A stretch of 64,000 nt of DNA from Cystobasidium ongulense. Lineage: Eukaryota; Basidiomycota; Cystobasidiomycetes; Cystobasidiales; Cystobasidiaceae. Below the pieces are notes generated by a model. That model was not told the origin of the DNA, did no database searches, and saw only the letters and a program-made list of their open reading frames with translations. The position numbers were made by a program, and so were the translations under genes. The stretch covers positions 1,674,001-1,738,000 of the forward strand of contig BQUP01000001.1 in NCBI GenBank assembly GCA_022835595.1. The letters run 5' to 3'. This document shows, in pieces, positions 10,134 to 48,541 of the stretch. Positions within the stretch are counted from its first letter, which is position 1. Every line of letters starts with the position of its first letter.

Positions 10134-11708
10134 CTAGCCGTGTTTGCGAGTAGAAGCATTCAATGCCCTGTTATCTCTATTGTAGTATCTCATAGCGGAC
10201 CAAAGTAATCCAGCTATAACTACGAATCCTGCTCCACTTTGCATGAGTGACATGCCAGATGGACTAGAATCAATAGCAGCAAATTTAGCTGAATTCACAA
10301 GTTGTCTCGCACCCTCCGTTTCTATCGCCGGCCGCCGGTCTTCCTCGCCATGATGCTGCATGCCCGAATCTTGCTCGCTTTGCTCTTCAGTGTCATTGTT
10401 CGATATCCTTCAGATACACAAATGAAATGAAACGAGAGGCAAGACGAGTGAGCTTGAAAGTGCAGAAGGAGAGGAGATACCTAGGCATCGGACGGGCCGA
10501 AGGCAAACAGCTAAGAGTGCAGTGGGAGAAGGGAAAGAGACTCACCCTAGTAGTAGCTTGACAAGCTCTCCCTTCTCGTGCAGCTCGTTGATGGCATCTG
10601 CACCACCGATATGTTTCTGGCCAATGAATATATTAGGTACTGTCCGTTGACCTGTCTTCTCCATTAGATAAGCCTGAATCTTGGCTCCCTGATCATCTTC
10701 AAGCATGGTATCAAGCTCGAAAATGACAGGTTCCGATTTCTTATCGGGTATAGATGCTATGAGCTGCTTTGTGCGTTTTGAATATGGCTGTATAGCATGA
10801 TGGACGTCAGCAAAACAAGTAGCTAGACTCTGCCAGGCAAACAAGTACGCACGCAGTAGCTCTTGCTGAATACCACTATGTGGTGGTCTTTAACTGCTCG
10901 CTGTAAGATAGACTCTTGATGAGCATGGGCGTCAACAGTAGCAGGGTTTTATAGTGCTTCTCACATCGACTAGACGCTTCGCATCGAAGGGTGCCGAGGG
11001 TACCTTCTTTTCGGTGGCAGGCTCTGCAACTACTGCGGGCTTGCGGTTCTATGTAATGGCAGGTAAGGTAAGAGAGCTGGACGACTTCCTTATTGAACAT
11101 GAAACCTACCTTTATGTTCAAGAGTTCAACATCAAAGACCAGCGTGCTATAGGCCTTGATCTTGCCCATTGCACGGCCACCATATGCCATTTCTGGCGGG
11201 ATAGTAAGTGTTCTACGCTCTCCAATGCACATGTCTTTAGATTGAGGAGATAGGTTGCGTCAATCCATGCAGTCTGCTGTGCCATAGCGTCAAGTATCGC
11301 TGCCTACCCAGCAAGCCTTGCTCCCATCCCTAGACGAGCGAGACCTGCTTCAGCACACTCTATGCGAAAGAGCGGCAAAGCTTGACTCACCTGGATAACC
11401 TGTCCCCTGCCAATGGTGAAGTCGAATGGCTGTCCGCGGTCGCGGGAGCTGTCGAACTTGGTGCCGTCTGCGGCGAGCGTGCCAGTGTAGTGCATGCTGG
11501 ACGAGCACAGCCTATCAGCACCCTAATCCAGCAGCACCAGTCTCCTCCAACCCTCCTCTCACCTCAAGAGGTCGCCCTTCCTCGAGGTCATCTCGCAATC
11601 CTCGGGCTTGCTCAGGACGTCAATCTTCAGCTCGCCCTCTGCGCGCACAACCAGTAGCGCAGACAGCAGGACAAGAGCACTCGACGCGACGGATAGACTG
11701 AACCGCAT
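10134..11708 (-). CDS. ER-type FKBP–glutaredoxin fusion with C-terminal membrane anchor
   Basis: Eight exons (11708–11563, 11496–11391, 11329–11308, 11234–11110, 11048–10965, 10900–10853, 10787–10546, 10407–10134) join in phase to about 348 residues. Residues 1–23 are a signal peptide ([19 protein letters not shown]). Residues ~30–135 are an FKBP-type peptidyl-prolyl isomerase with [33 protein letters not shown] and [11 protein letters not shown], so its pocket residues look intact. After a ~20-residue Ala/Pro/Lys linker comes a glutaredoxin: [11 protein letters not shown], active site CPYS at ~177–180 (split by an intron), TVPNIFI with the cis-proline, and GGAD. Residues ~316–332 form a hydrophobic segment followed by basic RYYNRDNR, fitting a type I membrane protein with lumenal domains. 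CPYS recalls yeast ER/Golgi Grx7. If the last intron (10408–10545) is kept, a stop at 10542–10544 gives a ~258-residue soluble form. The last intron uses an AAG acceptor and is the least certain part. Confidence 0.82.
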
Positions 11709-12153: not shown

Positions 12154-13497
12154 TCAAGCTTCGCCTGCCATCTTGGCTCTCTCCCTTGCCTTTTCTTGTC
12201 TTTCCTTCATCACCTTCCTGGAGTCTTCTATGGCTTCGTTGAGCTTGCCTTCCTTTGCCATTGCTACGAGAAGACCGTGCACCAGGCCAAGGTGATTATG
12301 CCGCCGCAAGGTATTCTCAAACTAGATTGAGGACGAGCGGAGTGATCAGCTCTACTAATCTAGATTGTCAGTCATGGCAAAGTACAGAAACTCACAGCCC
12401 ACCGCTCGCGCTTTGCAAGCTCTTCTTGTAAGCGAAGCTGAAGATCGTATAATTCGTGCTGCTTGTCTTGAGCTAGATTGGTAGCTGTATCACCTCCTGC
12501 AGCACTATCTTGTACTGCTTTGGCAGCTTCTATCTGTTTCTGAAGCACTCCAACCTGATCTGCACATATTGCCATCAAATTGAAGTTGATCTCGCTACCA
12601 CCATAACTAGCTATCCGCCTTTCAATGACTGCTTTTGCCGCATCAGTCCATGGTTCATCTTTTGGCAATTTTCCGTGTGATACTGGAGTACGCTTGAGTC
12701 CATCGAGTTCGTACAATTCGCCTTCAATGGGAATATATGCGATGAAATGGTAGGCATCTTCCTTTTCACGCTCGTCGTCTGGGTCGCGCGTGTGTTCGAA
12801 GGGATCTGATCTTGCGAAACTGTTGTGTGCTGTATAAGTACACAATCCAGAGTAAGCACTCATTCGACAAGCCGGCCTTTCTTCAATGGGCTTGATTCAC
12901 CTTCCCTGATCTTCTCCGACTGGCTTACGGCCCAGCCCCTACTCGTTGGATCCAGCGCTAAGCTGAAGCTCTTCAAAGTCTCCAGCTCAGATCCAAGCTG
13001 CACGTCCTCCTTATTGCCAGCAGCGTTCCCTGATATATTAAGAGTTGCCTGAAGGTATATTAAAGCATGACGCTCGGCTTAGCTTGCGACACGACTACGG
13101 CAGGACGTTACTTGACATCAGTGCCCACATTCATGATTGCCATCGTGGCGCATGCATTGTTGATGACCTGATGCGCAAAGTAGAAGTCTGTGTCTTCTTT
13201 CGCTGTGCCGGTTGCGACGCTGCCACCAGTCGCGCTGGGCGACTCGGATGTGTCGACATATTTGAACAGGAAGATCAGGGCATAGATAGGCTGAAGCGAT
13301 GCCAGCAGCGATGCGTCCAGAGAGTAGAGCTCGCTGACTTCTAGGCCTTTCACGCCCAATTCCGACAAAAGGGCCGTGAACTGGTGATGCACCGAGTAAG
13401 CCAGCGCTACGCGGATGCTAGAAGCGAGAACAACTCCAGAAGTGCAGCTCACAATGGCAGGATCCGACTCGGTTAATGACCAGCCCGCTTCACTCAT
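12154..13497 (-). CDS. UCH37/UCHL5-type ubiquitin C-terminal hydrolase (peptidase C12)
   Basis: Five exons (13497–13453, 13380–13129, 13048–12901, 12829–12396, 12321–12154) give about 348 residues. The enzyme cleaves ubiquitin from the C-terminal side. UCH37 orthologues act at the proteasome lid through ADRM1/Rpn13, and in some lineages at INO80. Visible hallmarks are WSLTESDP near the N-terminus, LGVKGLEV, YALIFLFKY, the catalytic segment AHQVINNACATMA (oxyanion Gln ~86, Cys ~92), AHNSFARSDPFEH, the catalytic His in AYHFIAYIP (~176) and Asp in ELDG (~191). The C-terminal tail FENTLRRHNHLGLVHGLL plus a L/A/K/E-rich helix is the UCH37-like domain, which separates it from short UCH-L1/L3 enzymes. 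The start at MSEAGWSLTESDP matches the family. The length is normal. Confidence 0.94.
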
Positions 13498-37833: not shown

Positions 37834-37949
37834 NNNNNNNNNNNNNNNNNNNNNNNNNNNNNNNNNNNNNNNNNNNNNNNNNNNNNNNNNNNNNNNNNNN
37901 NNNNNNNNNNNNNNNNNNNNNNNNNNNNNNNNNNNNNNNNNNNNNNNNN
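37834..37949. other. assembly gap (116 Ns)
   Basis: A run of 116 undetermined bases. It sits between two repeat-bearing stretches, so unresolved repetitive sequence is a likely cause. Confidence 0.99.
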
Positions 37950-43007: not shown

Positions 43008-45228
43008 CTAGCTTGAAGCGCTGTCACGAAGATTGGGTGATCGTAGCAGATCATCTCCCATGCTCACAGGGCGGCTTTCGTCCATGTAAGGCTCAGCATT
43101 ACCTCCCTTTGCATAAGGAGTGGGCGTTGCGGGTGAAGTGACTAACAGCTGCAGAATAGCTTTTGCTCTGTCCGCACCTATCTCAAGTCTGAAAGAAGGT
43201 ATAGAATTGAAAGAGGACATGTCTGGTAGGGGACCGATAGAGCTCATTGTTGATCTTGACTGTCCAGATGAGGAAGTTTGTGATGATCTAGATGGTGTCA
43301 TTGAAGGACCGCTCATGGTCGAAATGATGGAATGGCGATAAGTAGAACGATTACGTCCTGACTTTGAAGATTTCTTACTCCTCATCGAGTATGGTTTTCG
43401 TGGTGCTGCCCAAGATGGAACAGGTATACGCGAATCACCTTGCGTGACCCAGGCCAAATCAAGACTTGGAGCACGAGTGCTCGCAGCTCTGAAATCATGT
43501 GCCTCCTCTTCTTCATCAAAGACAGACATGTCTCTAGGAAGAGATCTATGTGTCAAAGCGGTGTTAGGTCTACTTTGGGAGGATCGGATGTATTCTTCAT
43601 AGACTGAGTCGGCGGGAGTCTTCCCTGGTGATATAGAAGGAGGATAGGGCGCAAGATCTTCTTTGACAGGATTCTCATCGACGTCGGAAGGATAAGATAG
43701 CATCTGACCCGCAGTAGCCAAATCTTCGCCTTGTCGAGATTGCCATTGCTGCGATAGTGATACCGAAGTCAGATCTTGGATGACTAGTGGAGAAGAGGTG
43801 AATCGTGAACGAGGATGGGCGGAGTCAGCGTCTACTGGTTTTATAAGCGAGCGCCTCCCCTCCATCCATCTTGGTTTCATGCTCGAAAGTATGCCTTTTC
43901 CGCTTGCCGGATTTGCTTTTGCTGAATAATGTTGAGAATATGACCGGTCCATCGAAGAAAGTCCACCGAGTGATGATATTCCTGGACTTGGAGGTAAGTT
44001 TCGTTTCGAAAACATGTTGTAAATAGGTGCGTTTTTCTCATTCTCCTCTTCTTGTGGCGATGGAATCATACTTCCTTTGGCTCCTCCGAAGTGAGCCCAT
44101 GCTTCTGAGCCTGATGCGTCATGATCATTATGGCTTGTTGACATAGGGGAAGGAAGTAGATAACGCTTGGAGTTGGCTCGCTGTTTACGCCGATAGGCTC
44201 TATACCAAAAGGCCAGGAAGATAGCTACAACAGCTGCAACAGCGATGACAATGCCTGCAATGAGGCCGACGTTGACCTTGCTGACTTGTCCAGGGGAGCT
44301 GGGCTCGAGAGGCTCAAGTAGCGGTACGCCTGAAGAGGCAGTATTGCTGGACGTAGCACTGCTGAGGGTTTGGCCATCTTTTGCCGTTGAAGTGCCGAAG
44401 TCTGAATCGCTGAGCGGTCCCTGCGCGTCGTCAAGGCTGCTAATAGATTGGGTATTTTGATCCGCCGTAGGAGAGGTTTCCGGACTCTGCGAGCTGCTCT
44501 CGGTTGGCTCCGTTGCCAGATTTACCGCGGGGGCAGCAGAGTCAGTTTGCGAGTCTGCAGCTGCCTGTGGGCTTGTCTGCGAGTCTGTCAACGCTTCACT
44601 TGATTGCTCTGCGATTCCGTCAACTGAAGCGGAGGGCCTCGAGGTAGGCGACGAGACTGTCTGTCTAGTGGAGGTACTCGTTGCAGATCTCGAGGTTGAT
44701 GTCGCCTGTGGCCTCGGCGTGACCGTTGCCGTGGGTGGTCTATCGTGAATGAAGGCAAGCGGGCACCTCTTTAAGTGTAATGCGAGTATGGAGGTAGTTT
44801 AGTGGGTTGTAGGGAAAGTAAAAGGTCATGAGACGGGTCGGTTCCCAGCTATTCCAGCTGTATACGAGACCTTACTTACCGCGACCAGATCTGCTCTCCA
44901 CCAGTCGAAGATTGAAGGCCCGCAATCTTGATTGACCCAGCCCCACAGCCAATCATTGTCATTGGCTGAGCAGTCGCAGTCATTCTGTATACCAGTATTG
45001 GTGTTAGATACGATCAGGAAGTGAAAGCCGCCCTTGGAGGGTTTGTCAGCTAGCTTACAGCTACTTTGCATGTGCTGTGGTTGAGCTTGGCTATCCGTAT
45101 ACTGTGAGGTGAGCAAAAGTCAGCAAGCTGGACGGTGTTGTCTAGAGTGAATCTACTCACCATTCAGCTGCACCCGCAGGTGGACTCTGTCTTCGTTCAA
45201 AGGCATTGTTGCGGTACTGCGGAGGCAT
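43008..45228 (-). CDS. single-pass membrane protein with six-Cys N-terminal module (tandem copy A)
   Basis: Four exons (45228–45161, 45101–45059, 44984–44880, 44768–43008) give about 658 residues. The first three exons encode a small module with six cysteines: AAEC, STCK, NDCDC, NDWLWGWVNQDCG, IFDWWRADLVA, RCPLAFI. A Ser/Thr/Gln-rich stalk follows. The membrane segment is at ~239–262 (LIAGIVIAVAAVVAIFLAFW), followed by basic YRRKQR. The ~390-residue tail has conserved blocks: GSEAWAHFGGAKGSMIPS, NAPIYNMFSKR, RIPVPSWAAPRKPYSMRSKK, FRLEIGADRAKAILQLL, DESRPVSM and LRSPNLRDSASS. This architecture suggests a surface sensor with the N-terminus outside. No signal peptide is visible in exon 1 (MPPQYRNNAFERRQSPPAG), so either an upstream exon is missing or insertion uses the membrane segment itself. 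The family is unknown. Confidence 0.78.
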
Positions 45229-46079: not shown

Positions 46080-48541
46080 TCAATAGCTTGAAGCGCTATC
46101 ACGAAGATTAGGTGAACGTAGGTAACTATCTGCGATGCTCACGGGTCTGCTATCATCCATATAACTCATGCCGCTGCCTCTCTTGAGATCGGTGGGCGAA
46201 GGTGGCGGATTGACCAACAGCTGCATGATGGCCTTTGCTTTATCTGCCCCTATCTCAAGTCTGAAAGGAGGTATAGATATGAAAGAGGGCATGTCTGCTC
46301 TGGAACCAGTAGAACTATGGGCTGATCTCGCCAGTCCTGATGATGAGGTATGTCTTGAACTAGATGGTGCTATCGAAGGACTGCTCATCGTTGACATAAT
46401 GGAATGGCGATAGATTGACCTATTGCGAGGTGATTTAGAAGATTTCTTACTTCTCATCGAATATCGTTTTCGTGGAGCTGCCCAAGACGGAACAGGTATG
46501 CGCGAGTTACCCTGTGGAACCCAGGTCAAATCGAGACTAGGAGCACGAGTACTCGTAGCTCTCAAGTCGTCTACCTCTGCTCCTTCGTCAAAGACAGACA
46601 TGTCTCGAGGAACAGATCTATCTGTCCAAGCAATACTCGGTCTACTCAACGAAGCCCGACTATACCCTTCGTAGACAGAGTCGGCGGGAGGTTTTCTTGA
46701 GAGCATGGGAGTAGCGTGGAGGGCAAGGTCTTCTCTGCCTGCATTTTCATCAATTTCAAAAGGAAGAGACAGCGCACGCGATGCAATATCCGATTCCTCA
46801 CTCTGTCGACATTCTTGTTCCTCCGACAGCGATGGTAGGTCCTGAGTGACGGGCTGAGAAACGTTGAAGTGCGGATATGGTAGCTTGGGTCCAACGTATA
46901 CCGCTTGTACAGGCGCGCGTTCGACTGGATTGCCACGAAGTCGAGCGAAGAAGCTTGTTCCAGCGGGTCGCTTGTACGAATTCGGAGAGGCGGGTCCTCC
47001 ATTGTTATTTAGATAAGGTGGTGGAGGTGATCGCGCGCCCTCCATCCATTTTGATTTCATATTCGAAAGCATGCCTCTTCCGCTTGACCGGTTTGCATTT
47101 CCTGACAGGTGTCTAGAGCTCGACGGAGTCACCGAAGCAAGTGAGTGTCCCCCTCGGATCGACGACATCATTGGACTTGAAGGCAGAGCTCGTCTTGAAA
47201 ACATATTATAGATAGGTGCATTCTTCTCGCTTTCTCCTTCTTCGCAAGCAGATGGAATCATGCTTCCCTTCGCTCCTCCAAACTGAGTCCAAGCTTCCGA
47301 GCCAGATGGTCCATCGAATGTCGTGGGCATTGGGGAGGAGAACTGGTAAGTCTCCTTCATAGCACGCTGTCTACGCCGATAAGATCTGTACCAAAAAGCT
47401 ACAAAGATGGCTATAACTGCTAGAATAGCGATGATAATACCTGCGATCACACCGCCGTTGAGTTTGCTGACCTGTCCAGGCGAGCTGGGGTCTAGAGGTC
47501 CGAGTAGCGGTTTGCCTGGAGAGGCACTGTTGGTGGAAGCAGCGCTATTAAGACTTTGACCCGCTTTCTCAGTCAAATCATCGGAGTCTTCCTCGGTCAG
47601 AGCGAGCTCTTCGTCACCGTCGCGATTGTTAGGAGGCTGAGTAGATTGAGACGCAGCAGTGTCATTCGGATCTTGCGATAAACTCTCCGATATCTCCGAT
47701 AGTAGACTATTCGTGAGAATGTTTGAGTCGACTAGCGTACTCGAGTCGATTTGCGGACCAAGTAACGAGTCCGATATCCCTTCTTCGACTTGGTCTATTG
47801 TTGCGACAGATTCGGAAGGAGGCGATGCATTGACTTGCCCAGGCGGAGATGCTCTCTCACTTGAAAGCGTGGCAACAGACCGGCTCGTCGAAACCACAAC
47901 CACGGCTGCTCTAGTCTGTGCCACTGGCGTGGTCGCTGCAGGAGCAGGGTTGGGGGTAGTTTTTGGCGTGGGCGTCGGCGTCGGCGTAGGAGCTGGTCTA
48001 GGTGTCGAAGTGGTTCGTGGTGGCGCTGGCGCGACCGTAGCAGGTCTATCGTCGATGAAGGCGTACGGGCATCTCTGTACGAGCATACCGAACGTTAGGA
48101 AGGATCCGAGAGCATCAGGATAAGGTAAAAAGTGGGAGTACACGAATCAGTGCGTGTTGCTTAACTCCTTCGGTACGAAAGAATACCTACCGCGACAAGA
48201 TCTGCTTTCCACCAATCAAAGATTGCGCTACCGCAGTCTGCATTGATCCAACCCCACATCCAATCATTTTCATCTGCTGTGCAGTCGCAATCATTCTAGA
48301 TGGATTCAAATTAGTCAACATTGAAAGCTAATGTTTACGATCAATTCCTTTGAAACCCGCTTACTGCTTTTTTGCACCAAGTGTGTGTAGCGGTAGATGT
48401 CCGTATACTGTAGTATGTGGGGACAGTCCGTAAGCTATGTATCTTTGGCTCAATGTATGTATGTTGTACCCACCATTCGGCCGCGCCGGCGGGCGGACTC
48501 TGTCTTCGCACAAAGGTATTCTTGCGGTGCCGGTTGGGCAT
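46080..48541 (-). CDS. single-pass membrane protein with six-Cys N-terminal module (tandem copy B)
   Basis: Four exons (48541–48474, 48407–48365, 48295–48191, 48074–46080) give about 736 residues. The first three exons have exactly the lengths of copy A (68, 43 and 105 bases). The module keeps all six cysteines: AAEC, TWCKKA, NDCDC, NDWMWGWINADCG, IFDWWKADLVA, RCPYAFI. The extracellular stalk is longer than in copy A and Pro/Thr-rich (PTPTPTPTP), then Ser/Asp-rich. The membrane segment is at ~279–301. Tail blocks match copy A: GSEAWTQFGGAKGSMIPS, NAPIYNMFSRR, RIPVPSWAAPRKRYSMRSKK, FRLEIGADKAKAIMQLL and LRSPNLRDSASSY. Stalk and mid-tail diverge most. The function is unknown and no signal peptide is seen. 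Confidence 0.8.

Follow-up and report, generated by a model that had tools for sequence, protein, structure and literature searches.

Prolyl isomerases have been found joined to glutaredoxins before. The closest described systems are the oomycete oomcCYP04 proteins, cyclophilin–glutaredoxin chains that, in the passages of PMC7168621 dealing with them, are ubiquitous among the 21 oomycetes surveyed and carry a predicted transmembrane domain in 23 of 26 cases. The protein described here, from the basidiomycete Cystobasidium ongulense, resembles them in combining a prolyl isomerase with a PF00462 glutaredoxin on a probably membrane-bound chain, yet its isomerase is an FKBP instead of a cyclophilin and its host belongs to a different kingdom. 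No cyclophilin domain is present in the fusion, for which Pfam yields FKBP_C and glutaredoxin. The sequence-only reading, to which no published protein with the domains in this order was known, was thus right in part: no FKBP–glutaredoxin protein is described in the titles or abstract openings of the papers listed in searches of the open-licence PubMed Central literature, but the pairing of an isomerase with a glutaredoxin is already in print for the oomycetes. The novelty lies in a new combination with another isomerase family.

Glutaredoxins are also known from other multidomain proteins, including Trx-Grx, Grx-pyridine nucleotide disulfide oxidoreductase and peroxiredoxin-Grx arrangements (parts of PMC2679010), and the fusion likewise uses the glutaredoxin as a module. 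It differs in its partner: section 7 of that survey of multidomain glutaredoxins names no isomerase, and words beginning with "FKBP" or "isomerase" are absent from its main text. In other basidiomycetes the two activities are listed on separate genes. The ER FKBPs of Ustilago maydis (Q4P608, 15.2 kDa) and Cryptococcus neoformans (Q5KGT9, 15.7 kDa) are single-domain proteins in a 2006 annotation (tabulated in PMC1618848), and U. maydis has a separate Grx6/Grx7-like gene, UMAG_05435, which the same passage of PMC10672361 also names Grx5. The fusion is therefore not general in basidiomycetes, as annotated in those parts of the sources. Table 13 of PMC1618848 also holds Q4P790 of U. maydis, a 27.0-kDa FKBP12-group protein whose FKBP is N-terminal and whose remainder is given no domain name.

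The searches for relatives covered prokaryote and virus collections and are uninformative on fungal distribution. In viral contigs, an exon-7 peptide query gave six pattern matches with none confirmed, and the whole protein gave a single locus limited to residues 159–213. In genome contigs that are bacterial by their titles, 46 pattern matches led to 41 confirmed loci, none of which extended beyond residue 161. When residues 34–258 were compared with 398 genomes of one bacterial phylum, matches occurred in 388; among the matches listed, none spans both domains, and the two furthest-reaching of these end at query residues 145 and 147 of 225 and both contain stop codons. The FKBP–glutaredoxin fusion is known here from one species.

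Gene model and domain assignment

The gene was rebuilt on the minus strand at 11708–10134 of the window, the whole stretch of 64,000 nt that was analysed. It comprises eight exons and seven introns, with a coding sequence of 1047 nt specifying 348 amino acids plus a stop. All seven introns are of the GT..AG type and measure 66, 61, 73, 61, 64, 65 and 138 nt; the splicing in vivo is predicted from these signals. Exon 1 (11708–11563; minus strand, as for all features of the gene) encodes the putative signal peptide and the start of the FKBP, including Cys38 and the first residues of the FKBP_C domain, the bulk of which (residues 39–130) follows in exons 2–4 (11496–11391, 11329–11308 and 11234–11110). 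Exon 5 (11048–10965) is open in phase and encodes a linker, residues 134–161; its GC content reaches its minimum at position two of the codon, a pattern shared by six of the seven other exons. Intron 5 (10964–10901) joins the FKBP exons to the glutaredoxin exons. With 64 nt, phase 0 and the borders GTGAGA..TTACAG, it is the ordinary intron that the sequence-only reading had placed at the join, and a comparison join picked by eye in the neighbouring Mpp10 gene is similar (GAG|GTAAGC .. ACAG|GATCG, about 75 nt). Exon 6 (10900–10853) encodes 16 residues from the start of the glutaredoxin to the catalytic Cys177, and exon 7 (10787–10546) encodes the remaining domain with the PYS of CPYS, RTVPNIF and HIGGADA. 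Intron 7 (10545–10408; 138 nt) has roughly double the length of the other introns. Its retention, read by eye from the sequence and the model, would introduce a TGA right behind the glutaredoxin, and a soluble form free of the anchor is thus possible. Exon 8 (10407–10134) encodes an acidic spacer with the sequon NDT, a probable transmembrane segment and a basic tail.

The FKBP half matched Pfam FKBP_C (PF00254) over residues 39–130 with an E-value of 5.9e-34 and 116.7 bits against a cut-off of 21.1. The best match among single-domain structures was FKBP2 (4nnr), at about 119.3–119.5 bits; the wheat protein 3jym tops the ranking only through the sum of three FKBP domains, the best of which reaches 88.5 bits. 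All the FKBP motifs searched for are present, and the residues concerned are those that we take to line the isomerase active site and pocket. Cys38 and Cys94 align with both cysteines of 4nnr and, together with the catalytic Cys177, are the only three cysteines in the protein. The two cysteines of FKBP2 form a disulfide, and cytosolic FKBP12 is not known to have this pair. By these matches the FKBP half is classed as FKBP2-type. Like FKBP2/FKBP13 and yeast Fpr2, the protein has a signal peptide, one FKBP domain, both FKBP2 cysteines and the FKBP motifs; unlike them, it goes on to a further enzyme and a probable membrane anchor and has no terminal ER-retention tetrapeptide. Directly behind the FKBP domain, no HDEL-like signal is found, and the frame runs on into the linker and the glutaredoxin.

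The glutaredoxin half matched Pfam Glutaredoxin (PF00462) over residues 169–237 (E-value 8.1e-14; 52 bits against a cut-off of 22.9) and the NCBIfam model of eukaryotic glutaredoxins, TIGR02180, over residues 169–255 (91.1 against 87.25). The single-cysteine active site was found to be CPYS at residues 177–180, as claimed earlier, and it is accompanied by Lys174, three residues ahead of Cys177, and by the RTVP and GG features. PMC7138851 sets out, in part, what separates active class I glutaredoxins from inactive class II glutaredoxins with their WP motif; the fusion has the class I characters, namely Tyr in CPYx and GQRTVP, in which a basic residue replaces the class II motif. Since yeast Grx7, a CPYS-type protein whose corresponding residues are Lys105 and Cys108, works as an enzyme (same passages of PMC7138851), a working enzyme is plainly to be expected in the glutaredoxin half.

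The active site of yeast Grx7 is CPYS (part of PMC2679010), and that of the fungal GRX6 group reads C(P/S)(Y/H)S (part of PMC4765768), which CPYS of the fusion matches. Secretory-pathway placement and probable attachment to a membrane are further features shared with yeast Grx6/Grx7 and the GRX6 group. The arrangement of the chain differs. Grx6/Grx7 have a hydrophobic segment close to the N-terminus (passages of PMC6120076), as does Rhizophagus irregularis GRX6, where it is a transmembrane segment (passages of PMC4765768), whereas the fusion has no N-terminal membrane segment of this kind: a signal-peptide-like N-terminus is followed by the FKBP, and the second hydrophobic segment, the probable anchor, is C-terminal. 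Against solved structures, the glutaredoxin domain scored 73 bits with the Grx1-type 5kqa and 42 bits with yeast Grx6 (3l4n), and solved dithiol Grx1-type domains in general scored well above yeast Grx6, these being PDB ranks and not a tree. Placing the domain beside Grx6/Grx7 is thus based on the CPYS motif and the location; in the structural ranking it lies nearer to Grx1-type structures.

The secretory-pathway placement claimed at the outset is supported by the sequence. The protein maximum of hydropathy in a 19-residue window, 2.31, falls at residues 3–21, in agreement with the predicted signal peptide at residues 1–23 (11640..11708 in exon 1; hydropathy, with the cleavage point set by eye). 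A second, C-terminal hydrophobic stretch at about residues 312–330 has the modest score of 1.53, the customary transmembrane cut-off being 1.6, and is a probable transmembrane segment. These features suggest a type I topology in which both domains would be lumenal, as would the sequon NDT at residue 262 in the acidic spacer. The C-terminal basic tail ends in RKHG, and a tail of this sort might serve retrieval after the manner of dilysine-type signals.

The joint between FKBP and glutaredoxin

The existence of a single FKBP–glutaredoxin gene is confirmed at the level of the predicted gene. The spliced frame runs over 348 residues with both Pfam domains far over their cut-offs, and the two domains very probably belong to one fused reading frame. 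As the sequence-only reading had noted, reading through intron 5 leads to a stop ending at 10932. When the unspliced sequence upstream of exon 6 is read in the frame of the glutaredoxin, a TAA is reached after 16 codons, and from this TAA to the catalytic cysteine, exon 6 included, the frame contains no ATG, in keeping with the earlier statement that a separate glutaredoxin has no in-frame start; the first Met of exon 7 falls behind the active site. Exon 4 of the FKBP and exon 6 of the glutaredoxin lie 209 nt apart, linker and introns together. The next upstream gene on the same strand is a ubiquitin hydrolase, recognized by its exon at 12375–12896, which appears to end with an open frame that terminates in a stop codon at 12154; if that frame is its last exon, about 445 nt separate it from the FKBP start. 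The spacing of 209 nt within the locus against about 445 nt to the neighbour supports the one-gene reading.

The agreement of exon phases, noted earlier, was compared with chance by counting open splice parses in 400 dinucleotide shuffles of the 209-nt joining stretch. The frame is indeed open across seven GT..AG introns, and under the donor rule GT[AG]NG the real stretch has exactly one open parse; however, at least one parse also occurred in 50 of the 400 shuffles, so phase agreement alone is weak evidence and was rejected as proof. With any GT as donor, 297/400 shuffles had an open parse. Under the stricter rule GT[AG][AC]G, the real stretch has none because the donor of intron 4 reads GTAGG, and 46/400 shuffles had one. 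A role of exon 5 as the first helix of the glutaredoxin was likewise considered and found unsupported. The glutaredoxin query was compared with solved structures in four versions, with exon 5, without it, with exon 5 shuffled at the same composition and with the unspliced upstream reading, and the scores were mostly alike. Without, with and with shuffled exon 5, respectively, 2lv3 gave 66.2, 72.6 and 71.3 bits, 3fz9 gave 64.8, 66.6 and 70.0, and 6mws gave 66.3, 67.0 and 69.2; 4i2t (55.1, 63.6 and 56.5) was the only structure for which the real exon outscored the shuffled one by a margin above 2 bits, while for several the shuffle scored higher.

These controls bear directly on the possibility that the locus yields two transcripts or genes, one for an FKBP that stops at 10932 and another for a glutaredoxin that begins with a leader exon of its own. 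That stop is indeed produced when intron 5 is retained, chance agreement of splice phases is not improbable given the shuffles, and the score comparisons fail to tie exon 5 to the glutaredoxin. Even so, two messages are very improbable: with no ATG behind the upstream stop, a separate glutaredoxin would require a further spliced leader, the promoter space is scant, and the 10-residue tail that intron retention would give the FKBP has no HDEL-like end. That two genes were joined artificially, by faulty assembly or sequencing, is harder still to credit. No sign in its favour was seen, no run of N lies nearby, the junction sits in an intron resembling the others of the gene, and the window holds no second FKBP or glutaredoxin above chance (tblastn E-values of 0.24 or worse).

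The surroundings resemble fungal chromosomal DNA, as judged by Pfam on ten reading frames. The matches include Mpp10, KH, SNF2, WDR3 propellers and ubiquitin hydrolase, as well as a protein prenyltransferase repeat, MFS and sugar transferase. The window contains a single assembly gap, a run of 116 N at 37834–37949. Elsewhere on the minus strand, the long reading frames 43011–44798 and 46083–48146 are related, with 48% identity over 675 aligned columns, and are, judged by this similarity, a local duplication; in Pfam, 46083–48146 has only a sub-threshold match, to a short membrane proteolipid family.

A putative two-step folding enzyme of the secretory pathway

The product is most likely a membrane-held lumenal enzyme pair in which an FKBP2-type isomerase is combined with a glutaredoxin dependent on glutathione, located, as its predicted signals suggest, in the ER or early Golgi. 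According to the proposed mechanism, a single gene would give a single type I membrane protein, which would reside in the early secretory pathway and present two enzymes, one after the other, to the lumen. Its signal peptide would target the chain to the ER, where the FKBP2-type domain would bind folding clients and isomerize their X-Pro bonds, while the flexible linker would keep the class I single-cysteine (CPYS) glutaredoxin beside it to move glutathione on and off client cysteines. The C-terminal helix would act as the anchor, and the short basic cytosolic tail, possibly used for retrieval, would take the place of the HDEL-like terminus found on ER FKBPs that stand alone. Tethering would matter in this scheme, with the isomerase delivering the glutaredoxin to proline-containing, slow-folding clients.

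That the two activities are coupled on shared clients has about an even chance of being correct. Simple co-localization is a serious rival, although it falls somewhat short of that: the fusion would be real, the domains would have no more in common than their signal peptide, their anchor and their expression, and in the same compartment the FKBP would keep an ordinary FKBP2 role and the glutaredoxin an ordinary Grx6/Grx7 role. Each domain does appear complete and capable of independent catalysis, and other basidiomycetes have separate FKBP and Grx6/Grx7-like counterparts (in the parts of PMC1618848 and PMC10672361 cited above), whereas the occurrence of a separate isomerase–glutaredoxin fusion throughout the oomycetes, as PMC7168621 describes in part, hints at an intrinsic benefit of the pairing. 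The target of the glutaredoxin might also be its own FKBP, with reduction or glutathionylation of Cys38–Cys94 switching the isomerase with the lumenal glutathione state. The pair comprises the sole other cysteines of the protein, both aligned with FKBP2 cysteines, and a chloroplast FKBP is under redox control by thioredoxin. Such self-regulation is nevertheless improbable: stand-alone FKBP2 (4nnr) has the same cysteine pair with no tethered glutaredoxin, and single-cysteine glutaredoxins favour glutathione mixed disulfides.

Coupling on shared clients would also give a reason for recurrence. Membrane-anchored isomerase–glutaredoxin proteins may have arisen at least twice, once with a cyclophilin in oomycetes and once with an FKBP in a fungus, because isomerization at prolines and exchange of glutathione are coupled while the same secretory clients fold; this wider proposal is tentative and rather doubtful.

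The observation is sound: at this locus two known domains are combined in a new way. If expressed as read, the protein would place secretory-pathway isomerase and glutathione chemistry on one chain, and fusions that occur in nature are a classic pointer to activities that come together inside the cell. Together with the oomycete cyclophilin–glutaredoxin proteins, it makes testable the question of whether FKBP2-type and Grx6/Grx7-type enzymes, which are separate in yeast, share clients, and comparison of the two groups could test convergent fusion. The significance would rise if the domain order were conserved across a fungal clade that has no stand-alone genes, and if the convergent reading is true, the protein of the fungus would amount to a folding enzyme with both steps already combined.
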